Shown here one piece after another: positions 49,552-64,000 of a stretch of 64,000 bases of DNA. The notes under the pieces are model-generated. The model did not search any database. It had not been told where the DNA came from and saw nothing but the letters and a program-made list of their open reading frames with translations. The position numbers and the translations under genes were made by a program. The stretch's first letter is position 1. Each line of letters opens with the position of its first letter. Source of the stretch: Lachnospiraceae bacterium (GTDB taxonomy: Bacteria; Bacillota; Clostridia; Lachnospirales; Lachnospiraceae); the NCBI GenBank assembly GCA_021202075.1, contig JAJQDT010000044.1, positions 1-64,000 on the forward strand, given 5' to 3'.

Positions 49552-49599
49552 AAAAAGACCGCGGCAGAATGTGAATGACACATTCCACCGCGGTCTTTT
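49552..49599. terminator. Bidirectional terminator at the end of the rnf operon
   Basis: AAAAAGACCGCGG...GAATGTG pairs with CACATTC...CCGCGGTCTTTT in a long stem with one small internal loop. It stops the minus-strand rnf transcript directly after rnfB, and A/T tracts on both sides allow function in both directions. Confidence 0.88.
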
Positions 49600-49617: not shown

Positions 49618-50406
49618 TTACCTCATCACAATCGCTTTTGCCGGACATTTTTCCGCGCATTTTCCGCATCCAACACATTTCTCATAATCGATATGCGCGA
49701 TGTTGTTTTCTACTGTGATGGCGTCGTGTTCGCACTGTTTCATACAGAGCTTACAGCCAATGCAGCCAATGTCGCAGCTCTTCTTCACGGCGGGACCTCT
49801 GTCCTTGCTGGAGCAGCGCACAGCATAGACTGCTTTGTCCGGAATCAGCTCAATCAGATGCTTCGGGCAGGCGGAAACGCATTTGCCGCAGGCTTTGCAC
49901 AGACTGCGGTCGACAACGGCTACTCCGTTCTGGACGCTGATGGCGCCAAACTGACAGGCTTTTACGCAGGAGCCAAGACCCAGACAGCCGTAGTCGCAGG
50001 CCCATGGAGAGAGGCCGCTCGCGACCGCGGCAGCGCAGTCGTGGATGCCGATGTAATTGCTCTGCTGTGTGGTGTGCTCACAGGAACCGGAGCATTTGAC
50101 AAACGCAACCTGCTTTTCCTGCGCGTCCGCACTCACGCCCATGACCTGGCTGATTTTTTCTGCAACTGGAGCGCCGCCGACCGGACAGCCGTTGACCGGC
50201 GCTTCCCCTTTCGCAATGGCAGCCGCCATCGCGTCACAGCCGGCGTAGCCGCACCCGCCGCAGTTGTTTCCCGGCAGGTATTCGCGGACCGCGAGCTGTT
50301 TTTCATCTACTTCTACTTTAAATTTTTTTCCGACATTGATCAGGAGCATACCCATCACAAAGCCGATCACCGCTACGGTTACCGTAGCGATCAGTACAGG
50401 ATACAT
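49618..50406 (-). CDS. rnfB: Rnf complex subunit B, multi-cluster ferredoxin
   Basis: RnfB takes electrons from reduced ferredoxin. One N-terminal membrane helix (about 5-25) is followed by the Fe-S motif CGGCGYAGCDAMAAAI and then ferredoxin-type motifs CKACGKCVSACP, CIGCKLCMKQCEHD and CVGCGKCAEKCP. This is the last gene of the operon, which ends at a strong terminator. A spacer of 168 bp with repeat copy D1 separates it from rnfA. Confidence 0.95.
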   Translation of the reverse strand: MYPVLIATVTVAVIGFVMGMLLINVGKKFKVEVDEKQLAVREYLPGNNCGGCGYAGCDAMAAAIAKGEAPVNGCPVGGAPVAEKISQVMGVSADAQEKQVAFVKCSGSCEHTTQQSNYIGIHDCAAAVASGLSPWACDYGCLGLGSCVKACQFGAISVQNGVAVVDRSLCKACGKCVSACPKHLIELIPDKAVYAVRCSSKDRGPAVKKSCDIGCIGCKLCMKQCEHDAITVENNIAHIDYEKCVGCGKCAEKCPAKAIVMR

Positions 50407-50480
50407 ATTCTACCTCCTTGCTGGAATTCTTATTTCTTATTCGGCAGGAAAGCTCTCCGAACCTCCCTGTCGAACAAAGA

Positions 50481-50532
50481 CTTATGCGCACGGAAGCGTA
50501 AGGTATTTTATTGCTTCACAATACGCAATCCG
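50481..50532 (-). repeat. Dispersed nested-hairpin element, copy D1, between rnfA and rnfB
   Basis: On the minus strand: outer stem CGGATTGCGT / ACGCTTCCG (one bulge), inner hairpin ATTG-TGAAG-CAAT, unpaired AAAATACCTT, then GTGCGCATAAG. The unpaired strand and the 3' flank match copy E (AAATTTCCTT and GTGTGCATATGA). Confidence 0.55.
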
Positions 50533-50574
50533 AAGGCTCAAAACCGGAGACGCTTCGCTGCTCATTGCTGCTCA

Positions 50575-51153
50575 TCAGAGTGACAGCCCGCTAAAGCCCA
50601 TAAACGCGATGGACATCAGGGCAGCAGAGAGCAGAACTACCGGCGCCCCGCGGAACGGAGCCGGAATGGCAGATTCGTCGATGCGCTCACGGATACCGGC
50701 GAGCACGACAATCGCGATGGTGTACCCAACTGCGGTTCCGAAACCGGCGAATACGCTTTCAACGAAATTGTAGCCATCCTGCACATTGGTCAGAGCCACG
50801 CCGAGCACGGCGCAGTTCGTGGTAATCAGCGGGAGATAGATGCCCAGTGCCTGATAGAGAGGCGGAGCGACTTTTTTCAGGAACATTTCAACGATCTGCA
50901 CCAGGGTCGCGATGACCAGGATAAATACGATGGTGTTCAGATACGTCAGATCCAGAGGCTCCAGGATGAATGTATACAGCAGGTTCGCGACGGCTGAGGC
51001 GATCGTGATGACAAAGATAACCGCCGCGCCGAGGCTGGCTGAGGTTTTTATTTGCTTTGAGACGCCGAGGAATGAGCAGATTCCAAGGAACTGACTCAGC
51101 ACAACGTTATCAATCAAAGCGGTCGTGATAATGATTAAAAACAGAGAATTCAT
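50575..51153 (-). CDS. rnfA: Rnf complex membrane subunit A
   Basis: A 192-residue protein with six membrane helices of the RnfA/NqrE family. The N-terminus contains DNVVLSQFLGICSFLGVS with the conserved Cys region that, together with RnfE, binds an intramembrane Fe-S cluster. It overlaps the rnfE stop by 4 bp. Confidence 0.95.
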   Translation of the reverse strand: MNSLFLIIITTALIDNVVLSQFLGICSFLGVSKQIKTSASLGAAVIFVITIASAVANLLYTFILEPLDLTYLNTIVFILVIATLVQIVEMFLKKVAPPLYQALGIYLPLITTNCAVLGVALTNVQDGYNFVESVFAGFGTAVGYTIAIVVLAGIRERIDESAIPAPFRGAPVVLLSAALMSIAFMGFSGLSL

Positions 51154-51839
51154 GCTTTGGTCGCCTCCTTGTTATCTGTAGTGTCCCCGTGAGTGATGGA
51201 ACAGGTCGCGCAGCAGCCGTCACATCCTTCTACTTTTTTGTTTGCTTCGGTATGAATATGTACAGCATTCATAATGGCGATGATGAACGCGATCACGAGG
51301 AATGCGCCCGGAGCCTTTACGAATATGGCGATGGGCGGTACCGAATCCGGCAGAAGTGTGTATCCGAACGCGGTTCCCGCTCCGACCAGCTCCCGGACCA
51401 GACCGATGACGGTCAGGGCGATGGTAAATCCAAGCCCCATGCCGATGCCGTCGAATACCGCGAGATCAGGGGTGTGCTTATTTGCATATGCTTCCGCGCG
51501 GCCGAGGATGATGCAGTTAACTACAATCAGTGGAATGTAAATGCCCAGCGCGTCGTAGAGCCCGGGTGTGTACGCCTGCATCAGCAGGTCGACAATGGTC
51601 ACGAGCGAGGCCGTGATCACAATGTAGGCCGGGAGCCGCACTTCGTCCGGTATGACATTGCGCAGCGCTGAGATGATCAGGTTTGAAAAAATCAGGACGA
51701 TCATGGAGGAGATGCCCATGCCGATTCCGTTGATGGCGGACGTCGTCACCGCGAGGGTAGGACACATACCAAGCATCAGGATCAGCGAGGGGTTTTCCTT
51801 CACAACGCCATTATAAATCCGTTCCAGATATTGGTTCAT
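51150..51839 (-). CDS. rnfE: Rnf complex membrane subunit E, with Cys-rich tail
   Basis: RnfE/NqrD family, six membrane helices, with GMCPTLAVTTSAINGIGMG containing the conserved Cys. It is 229 residues, slightly longer than usual, because of a C-terminal extension with four cysteines (CDGCCATC). This could bind a metal or form disulfides. Coupled to rnfA by a 4-bp overlap. Confidence 0.95.
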   Translation of the reverse strand: MNQYLERIYNGVVKENPSLILMLGMCPTLAVTTSAINGIGMGISSMIVLIFSNLIISALRNVIPDEVRLPAYIVITASLVTIVDLLMQAYTPGLYDALGIYIPLIVVNCIILGRAEAYANKHTPDLAVFDGIGMGLGFTIALTVIGLVRELVGAGTAFGYTLLPDSVPPIAIFVKAPGAFLVIAFIIAIMNAVHIHTEANKKVEGCDGCCATCSITHGDTTDNKEATKA

Positions 51840-51862
51840 TCTTTGTTCTCTCCTTTATATAT

Positions 51863-51967
51863 CCTGCATCGGTTTTTGATGCAGGAAATATTCCGATTTG
51901 CAAAGCAAATCGAGAATGGTACTGCAGGCCACGTCTTGCGCTTCAGCGCAATTATAAATGACGTGGC
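51863..51967 (+). repeat. Dispersed nested-hairpin element, copy D2, between rnfDG and rnfE
   Basis: Three hairpins in a row: CCTGCATC/GATGCAGG (51863-51885), CGATTTGC-AAA-GCAAATCG (51894-51912), and outer stem GCCACGTC/GACGTGGC (51928-51935 and 51960-51967) enclosing TTGCGCT-TC-AGCGCAA and unpaired TTATAAAT. The last hairpin has the same architecture as copies B and E with unrelated stems. Confidence 0.55.
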
Positions 51968-52058
51968 TTACCTTTTTATGTCCCGCAGCTTATTGACAGT
52001 GGATATGCAGCGGTCTGCAGAATATGCCCAAAGAGCGGCCGCAAACCGGGCATACTCG

Positions 52059-53606
52059 TTATCCAATATTTGCCGCGAAGAAAGCGAGTGCGGTATTGAC
52101 CGCGTTGACGACAGCTCCGGAGGAGGTGGAAGCACCGGATACGGTGTCGATTTCATTCTCTTCGGTGGATCCGCCGGATTTGTTCAGGATGAATGCATCG
52201 GTATTGACACCCTCAAACTGGCTCTTGAAGGCGTCCTCGTCGACACGCATGCCCATGCCGGCCGTTTCGTTCAGGGTGGTGAAAGCAATCTTAACCACTG
52301 TACCATCCGTGGTGAGGCCGACAGAGAGGGTGATATCGCCGTCAAAGCCATCTCCGCTTGTGACGCTGATGACGTATCCGACGATTTCGCCGTTCGCGTC
52401 ATATCCGACGACTGCGTCATTGATATAGGTCTTGCCAAAAGCAGAATCATAGATCTCTTCACCGAGTGCTTCAATTGCCGCGTCCAGATCGGAGTCATAT
52501 TTGAAGGATTCCGCATCCGGGCAAACTTCCTGGTAAGAAGCCAGACTGTCTGCCATTTCCTGCTCCTCAATTTTGGATTTGGTCATCGCGTAGACACCGC
52601 TTAACAGCAGGCCTGCGACGAGGGTAATTACCGTCAGGTTGATGGCAGCCTTCGGGAATTCGCGCTCCTTATATTCGCCGCCCTTGTAGCCGAGAGGCTT
52701 CGGGATCGGCAGCTTGTCAATGAACGGAACGAGCATATTGGAGATAATGATTGCATAGCTGAAGGAGTCAGCGGAAGAACCGTATACACGGAACAGGCCG
52801 CCGAGAATACCGATGATCGCGCCATAGACGATGTGTCCGCGCGAGGTCACCGGACTGGTCACCGGGTCGGTTGCCATGAAGAAGGCTCCCATCAGAAGTC
52901 CGCCGCCGCAGATCTGGGCGATCAGGTAAGCCGGGACAAATCCGCCCTCGCCGAAAATCCCCATAAATAAGGTGAAGGCGACGATACAGGAAACCGGAAT
53001 TTCCAGTGTGATCCCTCCGGCTGCCCACAGGTACATACCGCCGATCAGCAGTGCCAGTGCCGAACCGCCGATCACACCGTTTGTGGTGCCCAGGTAAATC
53101 CTTGCGACGTTGACGGCATCGCCGGCATTCAGTGCGGCGAGCGGGGTCGCGGAGCTGACGCCGTCTACGCTGAAGTTCGTCATGGCAGTGCCGAACGAAA
53201 TCAGCAGGAAGCAGCGTGCTGCGAGCGCAGGGTTCAAAAAGTTCTTTCCAAGTCCGCCAAAAAAGCATTTCACAACCAGAATCGCAAACATGGAGCCGAG
53301 AATCGGCAGATAGAGCGGCGCTTCCGGCGGAAGAGAGAGCGCCAGCAGCAGGCCGGTCACGACCGCGCTTCCGTCCTTAACGGTGTTGGGCCGCTTTGCG
53401 ATGTAGTCAAATACGTATTCTGACAGCACGGCGGTAAGGACGGAGAGCAGAACCACGAGAAACGCGTGCAGTCCGTATCGCACAATGCCAAAAACAGTAG
53501 CCGGCATCAGAGCCAGTACGACATCCAGCATGACCTGTCCGGTTGTGAGCTTACTGCTTCGGATATGAGGGCTGGAAGAAATATTTAAAAGCTGTTTTTC
53601 ATTCAT
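52059..53606 (-). CDS. rnfD: Rnf complex fused subunits D and G
   Basis: One 515-residue frame contains RnfD (about 1-315: membrane helices, FMN-threonine motif SSATPL with T154) directly followed by RnfG (about 318-515: one membrane helix, then an extracytoplasmic FMN domain). Normally these are separate genes. In the RnfG part the flavin-attachment motif reads VSGASTSS, so the attachment residue would be Ser493 instead of the usual Thr. Both FMNs lie on the path by which electrons cross or face the membrane outside. The gene lies between rnfC (10 bp upstream) and rnfE. Confidence 0.93.
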   Translation of the reverse strand: MNEKQLLNISSSPHIRSSKLTTGQVMLDVVLALMPATVFGIVRYGLHAFLVVLLSVLTAVLSEYVFDYIAKRPNTVKDGSAVVTGLLLALSLPPEAPLYLPILGSMFAILVVKCFFGGLGKNFLNPALAARCFLLISFGTAMTNFSVDGVSSATPLAALNAGDAVNVARIYLGTTNGVIGGSALALLIGGMYLWAAGGITLEIPVSCIVAFTLFMGIFGEGGFVPAYLIAQICGGGLLMGAFFMATDPVTSPVTSRGHIVYGAIIGILGGLFRVYGSSADSFSYAIIISNMLVPFIDKLPIPKPLGYKGGEYKEREFPKAAINLTVITLVAGLLLSGVYAMTKSKIEEQEMADSLASYQEVCPDAESFKYDSDLDAAIEALGEEIYDSAFGKTYINDAVVGYDANGEIVGYVISVTSGDGFDGDITLSVGLTTDGTVVKIAFTTLNETAGMGMRVDEDAFKSQFEGVNTDAFILNKSGGSTEENEIDTVSGASTSSGAVVNAVNTALAFFAANIG

Positions 53607-53616
53607 GTCTCATCCC

Positions 53617-54951
53617 TCACTTTCTCTTAGCCGCAAGGATCTCGGCCTTGGCCTGCTTGAACAGCTGCATCAGCGGGCGCTTTGCCGGACAGATCCAGGT
53701 ACAGGAGCCGCAGGCAATGCAGTCGAGGCCGTACAGCCGTTTTTCATACTGCTCGTAGTCTTTTTTCTCAGCCGCGTCCGCCATCATCTGCGGAATCAGA
53801 TGGATCGGACATACGCGGGAACAGCGCCCGCAGCGGATACAGGCGGTCTGCTGTGCCTGGGCAAGCTCCACCTCATCCTCGGAAAGAAGCGTCATTGCGT
53901 TGCTGGCTTTGGTGGTCGGAGCATCGAGGGAGGGCATGGCGATGCCCATCATTGGTCCGCCGCTCAATGCCTTTTTCAGAGTCACCTCCGGCCGTATTCC
54001 TCCGGCAGCCTCCACGAGCTCTGCATATGAGGTGCCGATGGGAACTTCAAACGTAGCGGGAGCGGCAACCGCATCTCCGGAAACCGTGAAATAGCGCTTC
54101 ATCAGCGGCTCAGAATAATAGGTGGCGCGGTAAATTGCGTAAAGTGTGGCGACGTTGCAGACCACGCAGCCGACATCCGCAGGGAGCTGTCCGAACTTAA
54201 GGTCTCGTCCGCTGACGACAGAAATCAGGTTGCGCTCGCCGCCTTCCGGATATTTAGCCTTGACCGGCTGTACCATGACGCCTTTTTCACCGGCACAGAC
54301 CGCTTCCATGGCTTTGAGGGCTTCCGGCTTGTTATCTTCAATCGCGATGACGCCCATTGCGTCCGGAAACAGCTGGAGCACCAGCCGCAGGCCGTCGAGA
54401 ATTCCGCGGCTCTGATCCTGCATCAGACGGTCGTCGCAGGTAATGTACGGTTCGCACTCGGAACCGTTTGCAATGACAAAATCGATGGATTCCGGTTTTT
54501 TGACGGAAAGCTTTACATGGGTCGGGAAGCCTGCTCCGCCCATGCCGACGATGCCGGCCTTCTGAATCGCATCGAGAATGTCCTTATTGGAAAAAGTACC
54601 GGCGTGATGCTTTTTGCCGATTCCCTCTGCAAGGGTATAATTGCCGTCATTTTCTATGACAATGCACATCGCCTTCGCGCCGGAAGCAACGCGCCGCTCC
54701 TCGATGGCCTTTACCTTGCCGGAGCAGGAGCTGACGATATTCGCAGAGACAAAGCCATCTGCTTCCGCAATCGTCTGCCCTGCCAGCACGAGATCGCCCT
54801 TTGCCACGACTGGTTTTGCCGGCTTGCCGATGTGCTGGTTGACAGGGAATACAAGGTCTCCTTTCGGAAGATACGGCTGCACCGGCGTCCCCAGCGAGAG
54901 CTCTTTGTATCCCTCGGGATGAATGCCACCCCGGAATGTTTTAAGCTTCAT
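53617..54951 (-). CDS. rnfC: Rnf complex subunit C, NADH-linked Fe-S flavoprotein
   Basis: RnfC is the soluble NAD(H)-reactive subunit. It has a nucleotide/FMN-binding core (GIVGMGGAGFPTHVKL) and two [4Fe-4S] motifs near the C-terminus, CIRCGRCSRVCP and CIACGSCTWICP. At 444 residues it is typical. First rnf gene of the run, 101 bp downstream of the five-FMN protein gene. AAGGAGGA precedes the ATG on the minus strand. Confidence 0.96.
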   Translation of the reverse strand: MKLKTFRGGIHPEGYKELSLGTPVQPYLPKGDLVFPVNQHIGKPAKPVVAKGDLVLAGQTIAEADGFVSANIVSSCSGKVKAIEERRVASGAKAMCIVIENDGNYTLAEGIGKKHHAGTFSNKDILDAIQKAGIVGMGGAGFPTHVKLSVKKPESIDFVIANGSECEPYITCDDRLMQDQSRGILDGLRLVLQLFPDAMGVIAIEDNKPEALKAMEAVCAGEKGVMVQPVKAKYPEGGERNLISVVSGRDLKFGQLPADVGCVVCNVATLYAIYRATYYSEPLMKRYFTVSGDAVAAPATFEVPIGTSYAELVEAAGGIRPEVTLKKALSGGPMMGIAMPSLDAPTTKASNAMTLLSEDEVELAQAQQTACIRCGRCSRVCPIHLIPQMMADAAEKKDYEQYEKRLYGLDCIACGSCTWICPAKRPLMQLFKQAKAEILAAKRK

Positions 54952-55052
54952 ATGTAAATCCTCCTTGACGGATTAGTATTGACTGAAAATACGTCCTCCG
55001 GACTTGGCCCGTTCCGTCCATATTCAATGGGGAGAAAAGCGGGCGCAGATGA

Positions 55053-57488
55053 TTATTCTGCGTCGGAGAGCGCCTGCGTGATGCAGTCTTCGACTGCGGA
55101 CTTTACAGCGTCAGAGGTGACAGTGGCTCCGGAAACACCATCTACATCCGTCGACTGCGCATCCAGGATCCGGCTGGTGAGCTCCGGCCCGATCGCGGCG
55201 CCAATGTCTTCCGTTTCACCGGAAAGGTCGTAATCAATTCGATACATTCTGTTTTCATCGAAGGTAACAGAAACGGTGATGGTGCTGCTGATGCCCTCGG
55301 CAGTAGCGGTATAGGTGCCCGGGATATACGCTGCGGCAGCTGCTTCGCCGGAGGATGCAGTGCCGTCTGTTTCTTCCTCACTTTCGGCTTCATCCTCTTC
55401 CTTGCCTGCAAGGAAAATTTCGGTTGCATCATCTGCTCCGCCAATGATGGTCACGGTAGAATCGCTCTGCGCCTGTGCAATGCAGTCCGCGGCGGCTTCC
55501 AGGATCGCGTCTGTCGTAACAGTCGCGCTGGAAATGCCATCGACTTCAACAGACTGTGCTGCAAGAATCCGGGCGATCACGTCCTCGTCGATCAGTGCAT
55601 AGGTCGACGTTTCGCCGGAGGTGTCTACGTCCATCTCAAGGATACTCGTTTCGTCAAAGGTCATCGTTACGGTGATCTCTGTTGAATAGCCTTCCGCCGT
55701 GGCGGTATACGTGCCGGCAACATAGGATGCGGCATATTCGGTTTCGATTTCGTCCGTGGAGGTTAATTCTGTTTCCGGCTCGTCAGCTTCGGCTTCTGTT
55801 TCACTCTCGGTTTCCGTCTCAGCTTCGGCGTCTGTTTCGCTCTCGGCTTCAGACTCAGCTTCGGCGTCCGTCTCGCTCTCAGGCTCTGCGGCGTCTTCCG
55901 TCTCAGCCGTGGATTCGCCGGATTCGGCAGAAGTACCAGCCTGCGCCTGCGCGATGCAGTCCGCAATGGCGGCTTTCACAGCATCCGAGGTAACGGTCGC
56001 GCCGGAGACGCCATCTACGTCCGCGGACTGTGCGGCAAGAATCTGCTCGCTGATTTCCGGTCCGATATCCGCGCCGATGCCGTCGGTCTCACCGGATAAG
56101 TCATAGCCAACCGAAAGAATGCTGTCTTCATCTACGATAATCGTGACGGTCACGTCACTGGAAATACCGGAGGCGCTTGCCGAATAAATGCCCGGTGTGT
56201 AAGCTCCGGAGCCGACATCTGCTGCTTCGGATGTATCTTCACTGGCTTCCGTCTCAGCTTCAGTATTTGCCTCAGTCTCTTCTTCGGTATCTGCGGCCTC
56301 TGTAGTTATTTCTGTTTCAACAGCGTCGGTATCCGCCTCCGTTTCCGCTTCTGTTTCGACAGCTGCGACATCGGATTCGACTTCCGCATCTTCCGTATCA
56401 GTTTCCGCGATTTCTGTTTCGACTTCTGCATCCTCCGTGTCAGCTTCCGCCATCTCGGTTTCAGCTTCCGCTTCTTCTGTGTCTGCTTCTGCGATTTCGG
56501 TTTCATCGGTATCTTCTTCGGATGGATCAGACAGATCGCTGGCGGCCTGGGAGAGTGCGTCAGCTGTCGCTGCTTTTACAGCATCGGAGGTGATGGTCGC
56601 GCCGGAGACGCCATCCACATCTGCGGACTGCGCGGCCAGAATCTGATCAATCATTTCCGGGCCTATGACTCCTCCAATACTTTCTGTCTCACCTGAGACA
56701 TCGCAGCTGATGGAAAGAATGTTGGTTTCATCAACGGTGATGGTTACGGTCACGTCGCTTGATATGCCTGCCGCAGTCGCGGTGTAGGTGCCAGGGGTAT
56801 AGGAAACGCCGGATCCAGTGCTTCCTGTATCAGCCCCGGCTGCATCCTCAGAATCTGCTTCCGCAGCTTCATCTGTTTCAGCTTCTGCAGAATCCGCTTC
56901 CGCAGCTTCATCTGTCTCAGCCTTCGCAGAATCCTCTGCGGCATTTTCATCTGCTTCCGTCAGACCCTCTGTTTCCGTCTCGGCTGCTTCGTCAGACTCT
57001 GTTTCGCCGGCTTCTGTCTCTTCGGATTCTTCGGTAATCGCTTCTTCTCCCTCGTCAGACGAACCTCCGGTCGCCTGTGCGATACAATCCTCCAGAGCCG
57101 CTTTCAGGGCATCCGAAGTAATTGTCGCGCCTGATACGCCGTCTACGGAGGAACTCTGAGCGGCCATGAACTGTTCAATCATTTCATCGCCGATCGCCGC
57201 GCCGATGTCAGCGGTCTCGCCTGAGACATCGATCTCGATGGCGGTGATGCTGCTCTCATCAAATGTACAGGTCACCGAGACATCGCTCGATATGCCCGCT
57301 GAGGTAGCCGTATAGGTGCCGGGCGTATAGCTTGCGCTGCCTGTGGTGGCCGATGTGGTGGTCGCAGTTTCTTCGGAAGAGCTGACTGCGTATTCGCCAA
57401 TCTGAATGATTCCCAGACTGGCGGCTACCACTACACAGGCGGTCACACCCTTCACGAAGGTTGTCCGTGAAACAATTTCTTTACCCAT
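55053..57488 (-). CDS. Cell-surface protein with five FMN-binding domains
   Basis: An 811-residue protein. A hydrophobic anchor lies at about residues 11-33, so the rest should face outside. Five FMN_bind (PF04205-type) domains follow at about 53-140, 229-315, 429-517, 589-675 and 721-811. Each starts Y-x-x-G-x-Y and carries the flavin-transferase motif: DGVSGAT with T122, T298, T498 and T789, and the variant DGISSAT with T656 in domain 4. Linkers of 45-115 residues are almost only Glu, Asp, Ala and Thr. The set-up recalls the two-domain PplA of flavin-based extracellular electron transfer but is longer. Placement between tatC and rnfC suggests it takes electrons from Rnf. An ApbE-type transferase, needed to attach FMN, is not encoded in this window. 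Confidence 0.9.
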   Translation of the reverse strand: MGKEIVSRTTFVKGVTACVVVAASLGIIQIGEYAVSSSEETATTTSATTGSASYTPGTYTATSAGISSDVSVTCTFDESSITAIEIDVSGETADIGAAIGDEMIEQFMAAQSSSVDGVSGATITSDALKAALEDCIAQATGGSSDEGEEAITEESEETEAGETESDEAAETETEGLTEADENAAEDSAKAETDEAAEADSAEAETDEAAEADSEDAAGADTGSTGSGVSYTPGTYTATAAGISSDVTVTITVDETNILSISCDVSGETESIGGVIGPEMIDQILAAQSADVDGVSGATITSDAVKAATADALSQAASDLSDPSEEDTDETEIAEADTEEAEAETEMAEADTEDAEVETEIAETDTEDAEVESDVAAVETEAETEADTDAVETEITTEAADTEEETEANTEAETEASEDTSEAADVGSGAYTPGIYSASASGISSDVTVTIIVDEDSILSVGYDLSGETDGIGADIGPEISEQILAAQSADVDGVSGATVTSDAVKAAIADCIAQAQAGTSAESGESTAETEDAAEPESETDAEAESEAESETDAEAETETESETEAEADEPETELTSTDEIETEYAASYVAGTYTATAEGYSTEITVTMTFDETSILEMDVDTSGETSTYALIDEDVIARILAAQSVEVDGISSATVTTDAILEAAADCIAQAQSDSTVTIIGGADDATEIFLAGKEEDEAESEEETDGTASSGEAAAAAYIPGTYTATAEGISSTITVSVTFDENRMYRIDYDLSGETEDIGAAIGPELTSRILDAQSTDVDGVSGATVTSDAVKSAVEDCITQALSDAE

Positions 57489-57559
57489 ACTGAATTCCTT
57501 TCTTTCCTTAGAATAATGTGTTATTTATAGCAAACGAAGGATTCGTTCACTTACTGGTT

Positions 57560-58327
57560 TTAAGTTTCGTCTTCCTCACTTTGTTCCGCTTTCTTTTTCC
57601 GCCGAAACCGGAGCAGGAAAGAGGAGAGGAGAATACTGAGCTCATAAAGTCCGATCATCGGGAGAGCGACCATGGTCTGTGATACAATATCCGGAGGCGT
57701 CACGACAGCGGCAATCAGAAAAATGACGATAATCGCCCCCTTGAATGCTTTTTTCATCCATTCGACCTTCAGAAGTCCGATCTGTGTCAGAAGAACCGAG
57801 ACGACCGGCAGTTCAAAAATCACCCCGAAAATCAGAAAGATTGTGAGCAGAAAGGACACATATTTTTCCACACTGATTGTAGCGGTAATTCCGCTGCCCG
57901 CACTGATTCCAATCAGAAACCTCAGCATAAACGGAAGCATGACCTTATAAGCGAACAAAATACCAATGACAAAGCAGATCAATCCGGATATAAGAACCGC
58001 TGCAAACAAGGAGTTCTCATTTTTCTTTAATCCGGGCTGAATAAATGCCCAGATATGATAAACGAGAATCGGTGAAACAATGCAGATCGCCGCTACCAGT
58101 GAGACCGAAAACTGTTCCAGAAGCAGCTCCTGTGGAGAAATATACACGAACTCATAGCCGTATACATCGCCCATACCAGTCAGAAAGGTGATGATATCCT
58201 GAGAAAAATAAAGAGCGGCGAGGAACGCGACAACCAGGCTGACGATACAGATGGCCAGCCGGTTCCGCAGCTCCCGCAGATGACCGGAAAGGGGCATTTC
58301 GCCGGTTGTTTCTTTTTGTGTTTTCAT
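57560..58327 (-). CDS. tatC: Twin-arginine translocase subunit TatC
   Basis: TatC, the receptor for twin-arginine signal peptides. The family N-terminus (MPLSGHLRELRNRLAI) and six membrane helices are visible; the C-terminal tail is basic and short. Its start overlaps the tatA stop by 4 bp. Its substrate is very likely the Tat-signal flavoprotein encoded divergently at 59422. Confidence 0.95.
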   Translation of the reverse strand: MKTQKETTGEMPLSGHLRELRNRLAICIVSLVVAFLAALYFSQDIITFLTGMGDVYGYEFVYISPQELLLEQFSVSLVAAICIVSPILVYHIWAFIQPGLKKNENSLFAAVLISGLICFVIGILFAYKVMLPFMLRFLIGISAGSGITATISVEKYVSFLLTIFLIFGVIFELPVVSVLLTQIGLLKVEWMKKAFKGAIIVIFLIAAVVTPPDIVSQTMVALPMIGLYELSILLSSFLLRFRRKKKAEQSEEDET

Positions 58328-58503
58328 CCCTGCTCCGTTGTGTCTGATTTGCTGTCTGTCTGTGCGTCGGCCTCATTCATTCCATCGCGAAAGCTTTTCG
58401 CGCTCTTGCCAAACATTTTCGTCAGCTTCGGAATCTGGCTCGGTCCAAACAGGACGATGACGATTGCAAGTATGATCAGTAACTCTGTAGTTCCCAGTTT
58501 CAT
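58324..58503 (-). CDS. tatA: Twin-arginine translocase subunit TatA
   Basis: A 59-residue TatA/E: a short membrane helix (LGTTELLIILAIVIVLFGPSQ), hinge FGPSQIPKL and an amphipathic helix (FGKSAKSFRDGMNEA). ATG 58503 has AGGAGGA at 58511-58517; the frame is open further upstream without a site. Overlaps tatC by 4 bp. Confidence 0.93.
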   Translation of the reverse strand: MKLGTTELLIILAIVIVLFGPSQIPKLTKMFGKSAKSFRDGMNEADAQTDSKSDTTEQG

Positions 58504-58559
58504 GGAAAATTCCTCCTTAATTGTCTGAAAAGTATGTGATATGGTAACAAAAAAACTCA

Positions 58560-59123
58560 TTATACAGCCAGGACGGAATCGTCTGTGTCTGCCACAGAAG
58601 AAGCATCTGCGGGATTGTCAGATGCCGGATCGTCGGTGCGCTCTCCCGTTGGAGCAGATGGCTGTGCATTCGCGGAGCTATCCTCCGTTGGGGCAGATGG
58701 CTGTGCATTCACGGAGATATCCTCCGTTGCCGCAGCGGGTGGCTGCGCTTCCGCGGCATTTCCTTCCGCGGGCGTTGCAGAGACAGCCGCATCGTCCCCG
58801 GCGTCATCCGTCTTTGCTTTGACCGGCTCCGCTTTTAGCGGTTTGCTAAGATCGGTAAAAGACTTTTTGATTTCTCTTACGTTGCTGTTGACCTCTTTTG
58901 TCATTTCCGTGACCGGTTCCATCGCTTCCCGAAGAGGCTTTTGCGCCTCATTTAGCGGTTCTACGACATTTTCACGGATTTCCTTTGTGGCCTCCGACGA
59001 GATATCCCTTATGGAGCGCAGAGCTTCGCCAAACTTTTTCATATAATAAGGAAGCTTGTCGGGACCGGCGACAAACAGAGCAACAATCAAAATAAGAAGA
59101 ATCTCTGTCATGCCGATTTTCAT
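58560..59123 (-). CDS. TatB/TatA-like translocase subunit with long Ala/Pro-rich tail
   Basis: A 187-residue protein: N-terminal membrane helix (IGMTEILLILIVALFVAGPD), hinge GPDKLPYY, then a long amphipathic/coiled region (about 28-110) longer than in TatA, as in TatB. The tail from about 120 is Ala/Pro/Asp-rich and partly encoded by 39-bp tandem repeats. The start at 59123 is supported by GGGAGG. It is the first gene of the run tatB/A, tatA, tatC, five-FMN protein, rnf. Whether it acts as TatB or a second TatA cannot be decided; many Gram-positive systems use only TatA. Confidence 0.85.
   Translation of the reverse strand: MKIGMTEILLILIVALFVAGPDKLPYYMKKFGEALRSIRDISSEATKEIRENVVEPLNEAQKPLREAMEPVTEMTKEVNSNVREIKKSFTDLSKPLKAEPVKAKTDDAGDDAAVSATPAEGNAAEAQPPAAATEDISVNAQPSAPTEDSSANAQPSAPTGERTDDPASDNPADASSVADTDDSVLAV
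58649..58726 (+). repeat. 39-bp tandem repeat in the TatB-like gene
   Basis: Two near-identical 39-bp units (58649-58687, 58688-58726) and a decayed third unit follow one another in frame, encoding the repeated word NAQPSAPTEDSS in the tail. Confidence 0.8.
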
Positions 59124-59147
59124 GGATTCGCCTCCCTTCTTTTTAAA

Positions 59148-59179
59148 ATTATAGTAAACGACTTTAGTCGTTTTTACAA
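59148..59179 (-). promoter_or_regulatory. Promoter of the tat-FMN-rnf operon with dyad in a 20-bp spacer
   Basis: On the minus strand TTGTAA (59174-59179) and a perfect TATAAT (59148-59153) are 20 bp apart. The spacer contains a perfect dyad AAACGACT-TT-AGTCGTTT (plus-strand reading, 59156-59173). A long spacer filled by a dyad is the typical arrangement for MerR-family activation. The start codon lies 25 bp downstream of the -10 box, so the leader is very short. Confidence 0.65.
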
Positions 59180-59337
59180 ATAAGAAAATTGCATAAAACT
59201 CCTGTTTAAGAATAACAGTTTTTTGCCAATCTTTCAGCGGACAATTTTTAGTTTTTTTTGGATTAACTTTAGCTATATAAAATTTACAGAGATACCAAAG
59301 AATGTGAAAATTTACAAAAAGAAAATGCAAAACGCTC

Positions 59338-59366
59338 TGGACGTGGTGAAATTCCTATGATATACT
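59338..59366 (+). promoter_or_regulatory. Candidate promoter of the Tat-exported flavoprotein
   Basis: TGGACG (59338-59343) and TATACT (59361-59366) with a 17-bp spacer; TGA two bases before the -10 gives a partial extended -10. The gene starts 56 bp further, after AAAAGGAGG. Confidence 0.6.
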
Positions 59367-59421
59367 AATTGAGAACTGCTATTTTTTTGTAAAAAATTTG
59401 TAAAAGGAGGAGCACATTAGA

Positions 59422-61497
59422 ATGGAAGGAGAAAAAAAACAACACAGTACGCTTTCCCGCCGTGATTTTCTGAGGGGGACGGCTGCCGGGGCGCTTGGTG
59501 CTGCGGCAGCGGGAATTCTTGGCTCCGGGATGACAGCATTTGCGGAGGAGTCCGGTACGTACACGCCTGGTACCTACAGTGCCACGGCACAGGGCATTGG
59601 TACCGTGACGGTGACGATGACATTTGACGCGGAGAGCATCACGGATGTTGTGGTTGATGTATCAGAAGAGACAGAAACCATCGGCGCCCTGTATGGGGAA
59701 GAGCTGGCACAGCAGATTCTGGATGCGCAGAATTCAGAGATTGACGGCGTCAGCGGGGCGACAACGACCTCTACGGCGGCGGCAAAAGCAGCGGCGGCGT
59801 GTATCGCGCAGGCAAAAGGAGAGACGGTTGAGATCTCCTCGAATGCGGCTTCTTCTGAGTATGAGGTGCCGGATTCCCTGACCGCCGAGGAGGTGGACGA
59901 TTCCGACTGCGAGCTTGGAGAAGTGACGCCGGATGAGACGAAGGATTTTGATGTGGTTGTCGTCGGCGCGGGCGCGGCAGGCGTTGTTGCGGCTGGTTTT
60001 GCGGCGGAAGCCGGTGTTTCGGTAGCCCTCCTTCAGAAGGAAGCGAGCGTTGTATCACAGGGGAACTGCGGCTCTGCGATTATCAAATCCAAATCGACGG
60101 AGGCCGGTATCCAGAAGTGGATTCACCACACGAATGCCCTGGATGACTGGAGAGCGGACACGAAGCTTTTGCAGGCCTATGCGGACAACTCGGAGGAAGC
60201 TCTGATGTGGTATCTGAACCGCGCCGGCCTGACTTCTGAGACGGAATATGGCGATGGCACAAAGGTCGATGACAATACAAACTGTGCGGAGCTTTTGAAC
60301 AACGGCGACGGGCTGTATGCGTATATGAGCACGAGCCAGGATCTGACCGGCGTCTGGAGCGACCGCCTGGACAGCTATGCGTATGGCGATGATCACTGCT
60401 ATTTCATGGCTCCCTGGATCGGCCCGAAGCCGCAGAATGTCGGCACAGTGCTGCAGATTGTCCTTGACAATGTAGCGGAGGCGAATTCAAATCTCGAAGT
60501 ATTTTACAATACGCCGGCAGTGCAGCTCGTGATGGACGGCGACAAGGTGACCGGCGTGATTGGCAAGGATTCGGACGGAAAATACATACAGTACAACGCG
60601 TCGAAGGGCGTGATCCTGGCGACCGGCGATTATATGAATAACGATGCGATGGTAGAGCGCTGGTGTCCGGATATTGCGGATTTTGATAAGAAGCAGTATC
60701 ATAAGACCGGCGACGGCTATGTGCTCGCGCTCAGCGCCGGCGGGAAGATGGAGCCGCTCGGACATACAAAGATGATGCACGACTTTGATTCCGGACTGAT
60801 GTATGAGGAGCCGTTCCTCTATGTAAATATGGACGGAGAGCGTTTCACGAATGAATACACCGGATTTGTCTACATGGGCAACATCCTGAAATTCCAGGGC
60901 CGCTACAATGGAAACAATGTGGACTCGAACCATCCGGATGGCTCGAAAGGCTGGTATTGCACGATCTATGACAGCGATTATGAGAACTGGCCGTCGGATG
61001 AGTTTGTCAGCTCAATGGTTCCGGCTGCGGCGATGCAGAAGTACATCCCGGGCGCGGTGGAGAATCCGGAGGGCGTGTTTGATTACCTGATTGACAGCTA
61101 TTGCTGCGATACGCTTGAGGAGCTGGCGGAGAATCTTGGCATTCCGTACGATGCTCTGCAGGCGAGCGTGGACCGCTACAATGAGCTCTGTGAGACCGGC
61201 GACGACGTGGATTTCGGAAAGCCTGCGAAGTACATGCATCCGATCAAGACCGCTCCGTTCTGGGGCGTGCGCAAGCATATTCGTGTGTCTGCGGTATGCT
61301 CCGGTGTGATGATCAATGAAAATGGTCAGGCTCTGAACGCGGACGGCGAGGTGATTGAGGGGCTTTACTGCGTCGGTAACCTTGGCGGACCGTTCTACGG
61401 CGGCAATGATTACCCGTTCCATCAGACTGGCCTGTCGCTCGGGCGCTGCTATACGTTTGGCATGATTGCCGGGAAGCACGCGGCTTCACAGGAATAA
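59422..61497 (+). CDS. Tat-exported flavoprotein reductase (FMN_bind plus fumarate-reductase-like FAD domain)
   Basis: A 691-residue protein with a clear twin-arginine signal (SRRDFLRG at 12-19, then a hydrophobic Ala/Gly segment and AFAEE). Next is one FMN-binding domain (about 46-132, DGVSGAT with T114), very similar to those in the five-FMN protein, then a FAD_binding_2 domain (from about 175, VVVGAGAAG) of the fumarate/urocanate/flavocytochrome c reductase family, ending with EGLYCVGNLGGPFYGG. I infer an extracellular terminal reductase that receives electrons through its FMN. The substrate cannot be told; fumarate, urocanate, cinnamate-like enoates and others are reduced by relatives. 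It is divergent from the tat-FMN-rnf operon. Confidence 0.92.
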   Translation: MEGEKKQHSTLSRRDFLRGTAAGALGAAAAGILGSGMTAFAEESGTYTPGTYSATAQGIGTVTVTMTFDAESITDVVVDVSEETETIGALYGEELAQQILDAQNSEIDGVSGATTTSTAAAKAAAACIAQAKGETVEISSNAASSEYEVPDSLTAEEVDDSDCELGEVTPDETKDFDVVVVGAGAAGVVAAGFAAEAGVSVALLQKEASVVSQGNCGSAIIKSKSTEAGIQKWIHHTNALDDWRADTKLLQAYADNSEEALMWYLNRAGLTSETEYGDGTKVDDNTNCAELLNNGDGLYAYMSTSQDLTGVWSDRLDSYAYGDDHCYFMAPWIGPKPQNVGTVLQIVLDNVAEANSNLEVFYNTPAVQLVMDGDKVTGVIGKDSDGKYIQYNASKGVILATGDYMNNDAMVERWCPDIADFDKKQYHKTGDGYVLALSAGGKMEPLGHTKMMHDFDSGLMYEEPFLYVNMDGERFTNEYTGFVYMGNILKFQGRYNGNNVDSNHPDGSKGWYCTIYDSDYENWPSDEFVSSMVPAAAMQKYIPGAVENPEGVFDYLIDSYCCDTLEELAENLGIPYDALQASVDRYNELCETGDDVDFGKPAKYMHPIKTAPFWGVRKHIRVSAVCSGVMINENGQALNADGEVIEGLYCVGNLGGPFYGGNDYPFHQTGLSLGRCYTFGMIAGKHAASQE

Positions 61498-61547
61498 TCC
61501 GGGTCAGGAAAATGCTGCGGGAACGGATGAGGGCACAGGGATAAGGC

Positions 61548-62282
61548 ATGAACGAAGAACAAATTCAGCAGCGATATGAACTCCAGGACCGGATCTGCTA
61601 CAGTGTCTGTGTGGGAAATGAGTATCAGACCCAAAAAGCAGTGCGGGAGCTGACAGATATGGGAACCATAAGTCGTGTTTCGGATAACCTGACGGGGTGG
61701 AAATACGACCTGATCTGGTTGATGGCTCTTATGATACAGAGCCTTCGCGAGGTCGGGGTTCCCGAACTGTCGCTCGAAGAGGTGCGCGCGGAATTTACGA
61801 CAAAGATTTTTGAAGCTTCCGACGCAGACGGCTGCAGGATGCTGCTTGAAGAGATCGCCCTCCGCCTCTGCCGCATGAATTCTCTCAAAGAGATCCGGAG
61901 CTATTCCATGCTTGTGCAGACCGTGCTCCGGCTCATCGATCAGGATTTGAGCCAGCCGCTGACGCTTGCCTATTTTGCGAAAATGCTGAATGTGAACAGC
62001 TCTTATCTTTCGAACCTTTTCAGCAGGGAGGTCGGCATGCCGCTGACCGAGTATGTCACAGCACAGCGGATTTCCTATGCGGCGGACTTACTTATGACGA
62101 CTGCGCAGCCGATTAAGACTATTGCCAAAAAAGCGGGTATTTCGGACGTGCAGTATTTCAGCAGGCTCTTTAAACGTCGGACCGGGCAGACCCCGAGCCA
62201 GTATCGCTTAAGGCCCATCCGGCAGCCGGATGATCCGGATGCGCAGCAGGAGGCCGAGGTAGCAGAAAGAGAAGCCAGATAA
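61548..62282 (+). CDS. AraC-family transcriptional regulator
   Basis: A 244-residue regulator. The C-terminal ~105 residues form the AraC double helix-turn-helix (LAYFAKMLNVNSSYLSNLF and DVQYFSRLFKRRTGQTPSQYR). The N-terminal ~130 residues are helical and resemble the central part of YesN proteins rather than a cupin sensor; there is no receiver domain. It lies 50 bp downstream of the flavoprotein gene, so it probably controls that gene and perhaps the divergent operon, likely in response to the electron acceptor. Confidence 0.88.
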   Translation: MNEEQIQQRYELQDRICYSVCVGNEYQTQKAVRELTDMGTISRVSDNLTGWKYDLIWLMALMIQSLREVGVPELSLEEVRAEFTTKIFEASDADGCRMLLEEIALRLCRMNSLKEIRSYSMLVQTVLRLIDQDLSQPLTLAYFAKMLNVNSSYLSNLFSREVGMPLTEYVTAQRISYAADLLMTTAQPIKTIAKKAGISDVQYFSRLFKRRTGQTPSQYRLRPIRQPDDPDAQQEAEVAEREAR

Positions 62283-62848: not shown

Positions 62849-64000
62849 GTGATTCACCAGTATCGAAACAATGGTTATAATATTGTACTGGATGTCAACA
62901 GCGGCGCGGTTCATGTTGTTGATGATGTGACTTATGATGTGATCGCCCTGCTGGACGCGAAGCGCTCCGGCAGGGAGGAATCCTTCATTCGCGGCGGCGC
63001 GGGCGCCTCTTTTGTATGTGCTCCGACGGATTGTGGGGATTGTGCAGATGGTTCCCGGGCATCCGGCAAAGAGGAATGCAGCAGCGCGGAAGCAGGCGCT
63101 GTATGGACTGCGGAAATTGAGAATGCGATCAAAAGTGAGCTTGCCGGACGATATCCCGAGGAAGAGATCCGGGAGGCGCTTGGGGAATGTGAGGAGCTCG
63201 CCCGGTCCGGCGTTCTGTTTACGGAAGACATTTATGAAAACCCGATTATGGATTACAAAGCCCGGAAGACAGTTGTGAAAGCGCTCTGCCTGCATATTGC
63301 GCATGATTGCAACCTTGCCTGCCGCTATTGCTTTGCCGAAGAGGGCGAGTACCATGGCAGACGGGCACTGATGAGCTTTGAGGTGGGGAAAAAGGCGCTG
63401 GATTTCCTGATTGCGAATTCCGGTTCGCGGCGCAACCTTGAAGTGGATTTTTTTGGCGGGGAGCCTCTGTTGAACTGGCAGGTCGTGAAGGATCTTGTCC
63501 GGTATGGCAGGGAGCAGGAAAAAACCCATAATAAAAACTTCCGCTTCACGATGACAACGAACGGTGTACTTTTGAATGACGAGATCATGGACTTTCTAAA
63601 CCGTGAGATGGCAAATGTTGTCCTCAGCATTGACGGCCGTCCCGAGGTGCATGATTATATGCGCCCGTTCCGAAACGGAAAGGGCAGCTATGATCTGGTC
63701 ATGCCAAAGTTCAAACGGTTTGTAGAGCTTCGGACGGGAACCGCTTTTTCAGATCCTGTATGGCCGGATGCGCAAGTGGCAGATGCGCAGGTGGACGCGA
63801 AGGAGGCATATGGCGCTAAGGGGAAGTCGGCTTCGTCCGGCACGAAGCCGGAAGGCGCGGCATATACGGCTTCTGAAAAGACCTGGTATGTGCGTGGCAC
63901 GTTCACGCACCATAATCTGGATTTCTGCAATGATGTGCTGCATCTGGCGGATGAAGGGTTTGAACGGATTTCCGTGGAACCGGTCGTAGCGGACGAGGCG
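62849..64000 (+). CDS. SCIFF radical SAM maturase, 3' end cut by the window
   Basis: The frame is open from GTG 62849 to the window end (384 codons). The start VIHQYRNNGYNIVLDVNSG matches the leader-binding N-terminus of SCIFF maturases, and GAGGT lies at the right distance. The radical SAM cluster motif is CNLACRYC (C154, C158, C161), followed by the SAM-binding FFGGEPLLNW. The SPASM/twitch Fe-S region should follow beyond the window. Two unusual low-complexity insertions are seen: about residues 40-90 (with four Cys) and about 299-344 (Ala/Lys/Asp-rich, with WPDAQVADAQVDAKEA). Confidence 0.93.
   Translation, partial: MIHQYRNNGYNIVLDVNSGAVHVVDDVTYDVIALLDAKRSGREESFIRGGAGASFVCAPTDCGDCADGSRASGKEECSSAEAGAVWTAEIENAIKSELAGRYPEEEIREALGECEELARSGVLFTEDIYENPIMDYKARKTVVKALCLHIAHDCNLACRYCFAEEGEYHGRRALMSFEVGKKALDFLIANSGSRRNLEVDFFGGEPLLNWQVVKDLVRYGREQEKTHNKNFRFTMTTNGVLLNDEIMDFLNREMANVVLSIDGRPEVHDYMRPFRNGKGSYDLVMPKFKRFVELRTGTAFSDPVWPDAQVADAQVDAKEAYGAKGKSASSGTKPEGAAYTASEKTWYVRGTFTHHNLDFCNDVLHLADEGFERISVEPVVADEA

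Follow-up and report, generated by a model that had tools for sequence, protein, structure and literature searches.

A conserved Tat, flavin-protein and Rnf gene unit suggests quinone-free respiration outside the cell in a Lachnospiraceae genus

Can the Rnf complex be the entry of a respiratory chain that has no quinone, beyond its role as a valve between ferredoxin and nicotinamide adenine dinucleotide (NAD)? The question is raised by a locus of Lachnospiraceae bacterium GCA_021202075.1 on contig JAJQDT010000044.1, positions 1 to 64,000, a stretch of 64,000 nt referred to here as the window. On its minus strand, at 49618-59123, the genes for a twin-arginine translocation (Tat) exporter (tatB-like, tatA, tatC), for a protein with five FMN_bind domains, called here the wire, and for Rnf (rnfC, an rnfD-rnfG fusion, rnfE, rnfA, rnfB) follow one another in the 5′ to 3′ direction. 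Divergent from them, on the plus strand, lie the genes for a Tat-signal reductase with FMN_bind and FAD_binding_2 domains and then for an AraC-type protein.

It has been proposed that RNF with a multi-flavinylated RnfG branches electrons to alternative extracytosolic acceptors (Méheust et al. 2021, PMC8238504; this and the other papers are cited for selected passages). In this work we have analyzed the locus in the genus, the family and the class, and the unit suggests quinone-free respiration onto substances outside the cell in this gut-type group of Lachnospiraceae. The reading we prefer, with a probability of roughly 0.6, is that the locus encodes an anaerobic respiratory module in which electrons would pass from Rnf through the flavin wire to outside flavin reductases and on to soluble organic acceptors. 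If this is true, ferredoxin oxidation could be coupled to acceptors outside the cell with ion pumping.

The sequences show directly which genes are present, how they are linked, that they are kept or missing jointly, and the rule for export signals. TatC scored over the cut-off in 11 of 250 genomes of a family sample (the source genome and one other of its genus included) and in 17 of 391 genomes of a class sample (the source genome included), a rarity on the strength of which we reject Tat as a housekeeping system standing near rnf by chance. It is common in the source organism's own GTDB genus (30 of 47 genomes, 16 of 25 among the better ones), where the match is merely a TatA-TatC piece interrupted by a stop in G257 and is cut at the contig end in G282. 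Genus genes were labeled, on fetched tat and rnf stretches, with profiles built from the window proteins, which divergent genes may escape; a few secondary partial matches were left out of the fetched stretches and each genome was counted once. Linkage was scored in the 22 genomes where one fetched contig carries both tatC and rnfC, the eight left out being G152, G257, G277, G280, G282, G287, G288 and G293. In all 22, an FMN_bind gene or a pair of them stands between tatC and rnfC, on the same strand, with intergenic gaps of 11-249 bp; the original prediction, which was to fall if no relative conserved the neighbourhood, survives on this point. A protein with 3-7 FMN_bind domains is encoded in 18 of the 22, a Tat-signal FAD enzyme was found in the fetched stretch of 16 (the contig ends too early in two more, G253 and G268), and in four the Tat-signal FMN_bind and FAD_binding_2 reductase itself stands between tatC and rnfC. 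The FAD_binding_2 domain of such operon-type proteins was assigned by Pfam for L031 and L025 and by phmmer similarity for the rest.

The genus also provides genomes without Tat. Among these 17, five show no RnfDG match (G250, G251, G260, G278, G281) and two are uninformative (rnfC is not on the contig of G254, and that of G272 stops about 140 bp beyond rnfC); in none of the ten informative ones does an FMN_bind gene lie upstream of rnfC. Two Tat-less genomes (G252, G271) have the AraC-type gene directly divergent from rnfC, an arrangement that looks like the site without the cassette. When Tat at any place in the genome was compared with the presence of an FMN- or FAD-type gene upstream of rnfC, 25 genomes had both, 10 neither and none was discordant (Fisher p = 5e-9, relatedness ignored). 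In this table G257 was dropped from the Tat trait, G152 and G277 have the genes on unlinked or split contigs, and G288 was scored positive from a 119-amino-acid (aa) FAD-type fragment upstream of rnfC, not from an FMN_bind match. On a tree of concatenated Rnf subunits, made by a quick method, the trait state needs at least 5 changes against a shuffled mean of 8.7 and is therefore clustered on the tree; Tat and the FMN gene agree in five of five independent pairs. Since all genomes are drafts, some absences may be assembly gaps. Conservation and joint variation in the genus mark Tat, the FMN gene and Rnf as one unit, and the whole of Rnf, wire, Tat and reductase seems to be kept or lost together.

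Outside the genus the same genes recur in part. In another genus of the family (G234, stretch L025) rnfCDGEAB, tatBAC and an FMN_bind and FAD_binding_2 reductase follow one another on one strand; the arrangement goes beyond chance, because its order recurs across the source genus and, permuted, in this other one. The core idea of the original prediction, a joint unit of Tat, wire, Rnf and reductase, has been strengthened by conservation and joint variation and by the reductase lying inside the operon in 4/22 linked genomes and in L025. In G245 (L027) the rnf genes lie about 6 kb from a divergent tatC. From the class sample 15 further genomes were fetched (17 stretches, with a Pfam check on L098 only). 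In three of them (G517, L096; G455, L098; G408, L112, its tatC interrupted by a stop) an FAD_binding_2-type gene with a Tat signal occurs together with tatB, tatA, tatC and the gene of a small FMN_bind protein whose signal is lipoprotein-like, and two (G401, G424) have tatA and tatC plus a small FMN_bind protein. A two-FMN_bind gene is nearby in G369, and RnfC/RnfD-like genes lie about 4 kb off in G560; in the other eight the labeling brought up no relevant flavin or Rnf gene, bar a weak RnfB-like ferredoxin match in L101. Judged by these labels, Tat with flavin reductases is a wider theme, to which the source genus and L025 add the tie to Rnf.

The export signals separate the two kinds of flavoprotein. 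In the genus the N-termini of wire and reductase are alike, approximately S-R-x-x-F-x-K-G. The window reductase has SRRDFLRG and matches the reductase-signal profile at 2.1e-17 (the profile includes the same sequence); the profile also picks up the N-terminus of the wire (E 8.6e-4), which reads SRTTFVKG, without twin arginine. The twin arginine is found in 21/21 proteins containing flavin adenine dinucleotide (FAD) domains from 18 genomes versus 0/24 proteins with flavin mononucleotide (FMN) domains only from 21 genomes, cut N-termini having been dropped (G257, G277, G288) and a 174-aa piece of G287 having been called FAD-type by similarity to 690-aa proteins. This rule of twin arginine by cofactor, as it appears in the predicted N-termini, is new here, and a twin arginine confined to FAD proteins would amount to a natural experiment on the features that define a Tat substrate. 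In our own reading the FAD proteins carry it because FAD must bind before export, hence through Tat, and the FMN-only proteins lack it because ApbE adds FMN outside and Tat is not needed. Given the count of 0/24 we reject a Tat route for the wire, which is probably not a Tat substrate; five further FMN_bind proteins of the source genome (L064, L066, L068, L069, L070) likewise start without twin arginine.

Tat had been predicted to be dedicated to the divergent reductase, and this has to be corrected for the source genome, in which eight twin-arginine proteins were found: six with FAD_binding_2, one alkylsulfatase-like and one 4Fe-4S protein (the search profile was built from reductase signals, and other Tat substrates may escape it). 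Most Tat clients are therefore flavin reductases, and the outlet of Rnf through the wire could feed this Tat-exported set as a bus.

The reductase is also the part that varies. In G263, G266, G267 and G269 Rnf is 87-94% identical to that of the window and the AraC-type gene 68-69%, whereas the divergent reductase is just 25-26% identical and has no FMN_bind domain; G292 holds both reductase kinds. Going by these identities, the terminal reductase is swapped beside a near-constant Rnf, which is new here. At a little under even odds, we consider that the chain may be modular, with Rnf as primary dehydrogenase and pump, a wire of 3-7 FMNs as carrier and the Tat-exported FAD enzymes as interchangeable ends; if so, a lineage would change its respiratory acceptor by a one-gene swap, the ferredoxin-driven pump unchanged. 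The best NCBIfam matches of the window reductase, vinyl phenol reductase and flavocytochrome c, are far below their cut-offs, and its sequence matches include flavocytochrome c3 and urocanate reductase. Positions 402, 504, 505 and 544 of the flavocytochrome c3 chain, which we take to be catalytic or substrate-binding sites, align with Phe, Ser, Ala and Asp of the window reductase; the aligned residues differ, and fumarate or urocanate as acceptor by active-site match is rejected. In stretches with a reductase without FMN_bind (L050, L051, L052, L054) the wires have 5-7 FMN domains and in those with FMN_bind and FAD_binding_2 reductases (L038, L039, L044, L049) 4-5, in groups too few and too closely related to test.

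A single hydrophobic segment lies at the N-terminus of the wire. The protein is very acidic, its net charge being -193, and the 20 other multi-FMN proteins measured are also acidic (-41 to -229). Four of its five attachment motifs are SGAT.T; the fourth domain has SSATVT (residues 649-658) where all four relatives aligned have SGAT, and may or may not carry FMN. By sequence it has the features of a multi-flavinylated protein, namely more than one FMN_bind domain with attachment motif and a predicted extracytosolic location, and its single solved-structure match at E 0.001 is CbFMN4 domain 1 (8p2b). The cell-wall anchor motif LPXTG is absent from its sequence. In the RnfDG fusion SSAT of the RnfD part and SGASTS of the RnfG part are candidate covalent FMN sites; the RnfG part has one FMN_bind match only, the FMN repeats sitting in a separate gene, and is thus not a multi-flavinylated RnfG. 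In L043, L047 and L048 a small single-FMN_bind protein with a transmembrane-like start stands between a four-FMN wire and rnfC.

The rest of the source genome supplies the setting. The locus had been called self-contained, which has to be corrected: the one ApbE found (a Pfam match, with an N-terminus that looks export-like by eye) is encoded about 46 kb past the window end. Of the 16 FMN_bind matches that the genome contains, the window holds 7. A quinone pathway was not detected in the draft, where MenD matches were all below cut-off and PF02621 gave zero matches. A search for RnfC revealed no second complete Rnf. Two candidates were rejected: a 444-aa protein on C54, labeled only RnfC-like in a 3.9-kb stretch, and a 680-aa protein on C77 with no other Rnf subunit labeled in the fetched 13.8 kb. 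The latter (L063, 8763-10805, plus strand) has its RnfC part behind a differing N-terminal part and, we presume, may be of the methylene-tetrahydrofolate reductase-associated RnfC2 type. The annotations EetA/EetB, NDH-2 and PplA are not found among the 11 locus genes, a genome-wide search for them not having been made.

From these genes we infer the export routes, flavin loading, electron flow with its direction, and energy coupling as follows. Reduced ferredoxin, or NADH via RnfC, would donate electrons to Rnf, and part of them would leave the normal NAD path on the outer side of the membrane, at the FMN bound covalently to the RnfG part, to enter the membrane-anchored protein bearing a string of covalent FMNs. 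The wire would hand them to outside flavin reductases that reduce soluble organic acceptors. The reductases would fold around FAD in the cytoplasm and so need the Tat exporter of the same unit; the wire would receive FMN outside from ApbE and so be exported unfolded, its twin arginine lost. In Rnf structures electrons cross the membrane via RnfA-E to the outer FMN of RnfG and reach NAD on a return path via RnfD and RnfC; the A. woodii model places Na+ movement at the RnfA-E step (PMC12174285). If sodium does move upon reduction of RnfA/E, ion pumping could therefore go on without use of NAD when electrons exit at RnfG.

Several observations weigh against this chain. The FAD reductase was not seen in the fetched stretch of 4/22 linked genomes (G275, G279, G284, G291), and in four others (G283, G285, G286, G290) a 690-705-aa FMN_bind protein of FAD_binding_2 type stands alone, without a multi-FMN wire. 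In G152 about 36 kb separate tat from rnf, the window's own rnf run contains long gaps (RnfE-RnfDG 219 bp, RnfB-RnfA 168 bp), and the test of joint variation, with its 5 pairs, only reaches p = 0.0625. In the family, 7/9 other genomes with TatC show no Rnf labeled in the fetched stretch; two of these (G024, G055) have a two-FMN_bind gene near tatC. We regard as improbable, though with some room left for it, mere co-regulation, in which Tat, the FMN protein and the reductases would form an export cassette with another donor, placed beside rnf as both are needed under the same conditions. The separated genes of G152 fit it, as do the Clostridia stretches with Tat, FAD_binding_2 and small FMN_bind genes and no labeled Rnf (L096, L098, L112). 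It is opposed by the same-strand linkage with short gaps in 22/22 genomes, by the joint variation and by the reductase inside the operon in some genomes.

The direction and the end of the chain can also be read otherwise. Somewhat less probable still is extracellular electron transfer, the wire ending on metals, humics or soluble flavins and Tat exporting reductases for another pathway: multi-flavin proteins have been compared to multi-heme wires (PMC8238504) and the four linked genomes with tat, wire and rnf where the reductase was not seen would suit it, but a Tat-signal FAD enzyme is beside or inside the unit in 16/22 (2/22 being cut by contig ends) and the window wire lacks LPXTG. We hold it very unlikely that the wire, instead of conducting, stores electrons, acts as an oxygen sink or extends Rnf structurally; the number of FMN domains does range from 3 to 7, and a reduced three-FMN protein passes electrons to oxygen, with a single redox potential of -184 mV (PMC10339131), but the Tat genes and reductases of the same unit would go unexplained. 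Just as slight is the chance that electrons run inward, the exported flavoenzymes oxidizing substrates and driving Rnf backwards to reduced ferredoxin. Rnf is reversible (PMC12174285) and the FAD_binding_2 matches include dehydrogenases, e.g. 3-ketosteroid dehydrogenases; flavins at about -184 mV would, however, need a strong ion-gradient drive to reduce ferredoxin. Outward flow from Rnf through the wire to Tat-exported reductases remains the reading we prefer, and the question becomes testable in that one unit combines the pump with a flavin carrier, an exporter and terminal enzymes, while natural relatives without the unit can serve as controls.

Among known systems the Methanosarcina Rnf with the multi-heme cytochrome MmcA likewise has an outside multi-cofactor protein branching from Rnf, in an archaeon, with heme where flavin would serve here, and is not known to have a Tat unit. 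A methanogen RNF study is mentioned in PMC8238504, and the MmcA work is a cited title in PMC12174285. Genes for multi-flavinylated proteins often neighbor those for transmembrane electron transfer, and some are close to fumarate reductase-like domains (PMC8238504). The multi-flavinylated RnfG clusters of that paper share with our locus Rnf and extra FMN_bind domains; here the wire is separate, RnfG has a single FMN_bind domain and forms a fusion with RnfD, and the unit includes tatBAC and swappable Tat-exported reductases. SaFMN3 and CbFMN4 (PMC10339131) share the repeated FMN_bind domains behind an N-terminal secretion or membrane segment, but are flanked by putative flavin transferase genes, whereas here Tat and Rnf adjoin and ApbE is elsewhere. 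The extracytosolic flavinylated fumarate- and urocanate-reductase-like enzymes also combine FMN_bind with FAD_binding_2; their characterized donors are electron transport components encoded elsewhere (PMC8238504), while Rnf is adjacent here. Listeria flavin-based extracellular electron transfer has a flavinylated surface carrier in common, with a quinone-linked donor (PMC8238504) where the donor here would be Rnf.

The statement that no described system joins all these parts holds in so far as none of the open-access papers searched turned out to describe a Tat-Rnf-flavin locus, although the 2021 supplementary cluster lists may tabulate one uncommented; it does not hold for the idea of RNF with extra flavins serving outside acceptors, proposed in 2021 (PMC8238504). 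The word 'tat' is absent from the main texts of PMC8238504, PMC11334425 and PMC10339131, and the sole paper among those searched with both 'tatC' and 'rnfC', PMC6895022, concerns an organism said in the passage used to lack the Rnf complex; PMC12934955, which deals with riboflavin degradation, does not bear on Tat or the locus.

The source genome, a draft assembly in 173 contigs, has a completeness of 95.1% and a contamination of 5.5%. Each named gene passed the Pfam curated cut-off, apart from the AraC-type gene, which was tested against NCBIfam only; the predicted gene list is confirmed, by Pfam for all the others and by sub-cut-off NCBIfam matches only for the AraC type (Table 1).

Table 1 Features of the Tat-flavin-Rnf locus in window coordinates
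Feature	Position	Strand	Basis
Terminator-like hairpin 3′ of rnfB	49554..49598	-	20 counted pairs, T-rich tail; pattern match, says nothing on function
rnfB	49618..50406	-	TIGR01944 105.1 bits, over cut-off
rnfA, Rnf-Nqr membrane subunit	50575..51153	-	PF02508; letter A given from gene order
rnfE, Rnf-Nqr membrane subunit	51150..51839	-	PF02508; letter E given from gene order
rnfD-rnfG fusion, FMN_bind at C-terminal end	52059..53606	-	NQR2_RnfD_RnfE 5.8e-98, FMN_bind 2.1e-14
rnfC	53617..54951	-	TIGR01945 491.8 bits
Five-FMN_bind wire protein, 811 aa	55053..57488	-	Pfam FMN_bind x5
tatC	57560..58327	-	Over NCBIfam cut-off; sole TatC match in genome
tatA	58324..58503	-	TIGR01411 55.6 bits, over cut-off
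tatB-like	58560..59123	-	TIGR01410 tatB 51.4 bits (cut-off 56.5); tatAE 30.9 bits; over Pfam TatA_B_E cut-off
Tat-signal reductase, FMN_bind and FAD_binding_2, flavocytochrome c / fumarate reductase-like superfamily	59422..61497	+	Pfam; SRRDFLRG near N-terminus
AraC-type regulator	61548..62282	+	NCBIfam AraC-family models, none over cut-off

The Tat translocase set is complete, with TatC plus TatA/TatB-type subunits, the starts of tatA (58503) and tatB-like (59123) being later than the mechanical open reading frame (ORF) starts and inferred from family alignments. All Rnf subunits (C, D, G, E, A, B) are encoded, with D and G fused; against NCBIfam the fusion is over the cut-off for rnfD and below it for rnfG (94 bits, cut-off 102). 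Elsewhere on the minus strand distances are short: tatC and tatA overlap, and 71 bp separate the wire gene from tatC, 101 bp rnfC from the wire gene and 10 bp rnfDG from rnfC. The hairpin after rnfB is the probable operon end; terminator-like sites as a class were above shuffles (21 versus a mean of 13.1), and promoter-like sites were not (9 versus a mean of 9.7). Homologs of the AraC-type gene adjoin the module in relatives.

Some minor observations concern neighboring sequences. In L056, L057, L058 and L059 (from G263, G267, G266 and G257) a short ORF away from the module fuses a TatA-like part to a truncated TatC-like part, and such a TatC match with internal TAA occurs in six genus genomes (Pfam run on L056 only). 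The Tat-less genome G294 (L095, 5010-8337) has a second Rnf-like set, made up of RnfC and RnfD plus a protein carrying two FMN_bind domains, which resembles the published idea of a multi-flavinylated RnfG. At the end of the window (62849-64000, plus strand) there begins an ORF that has a CxxxCxxC-type motif and, by eye, resembles a radical SAM peptide-maturing enzyme.

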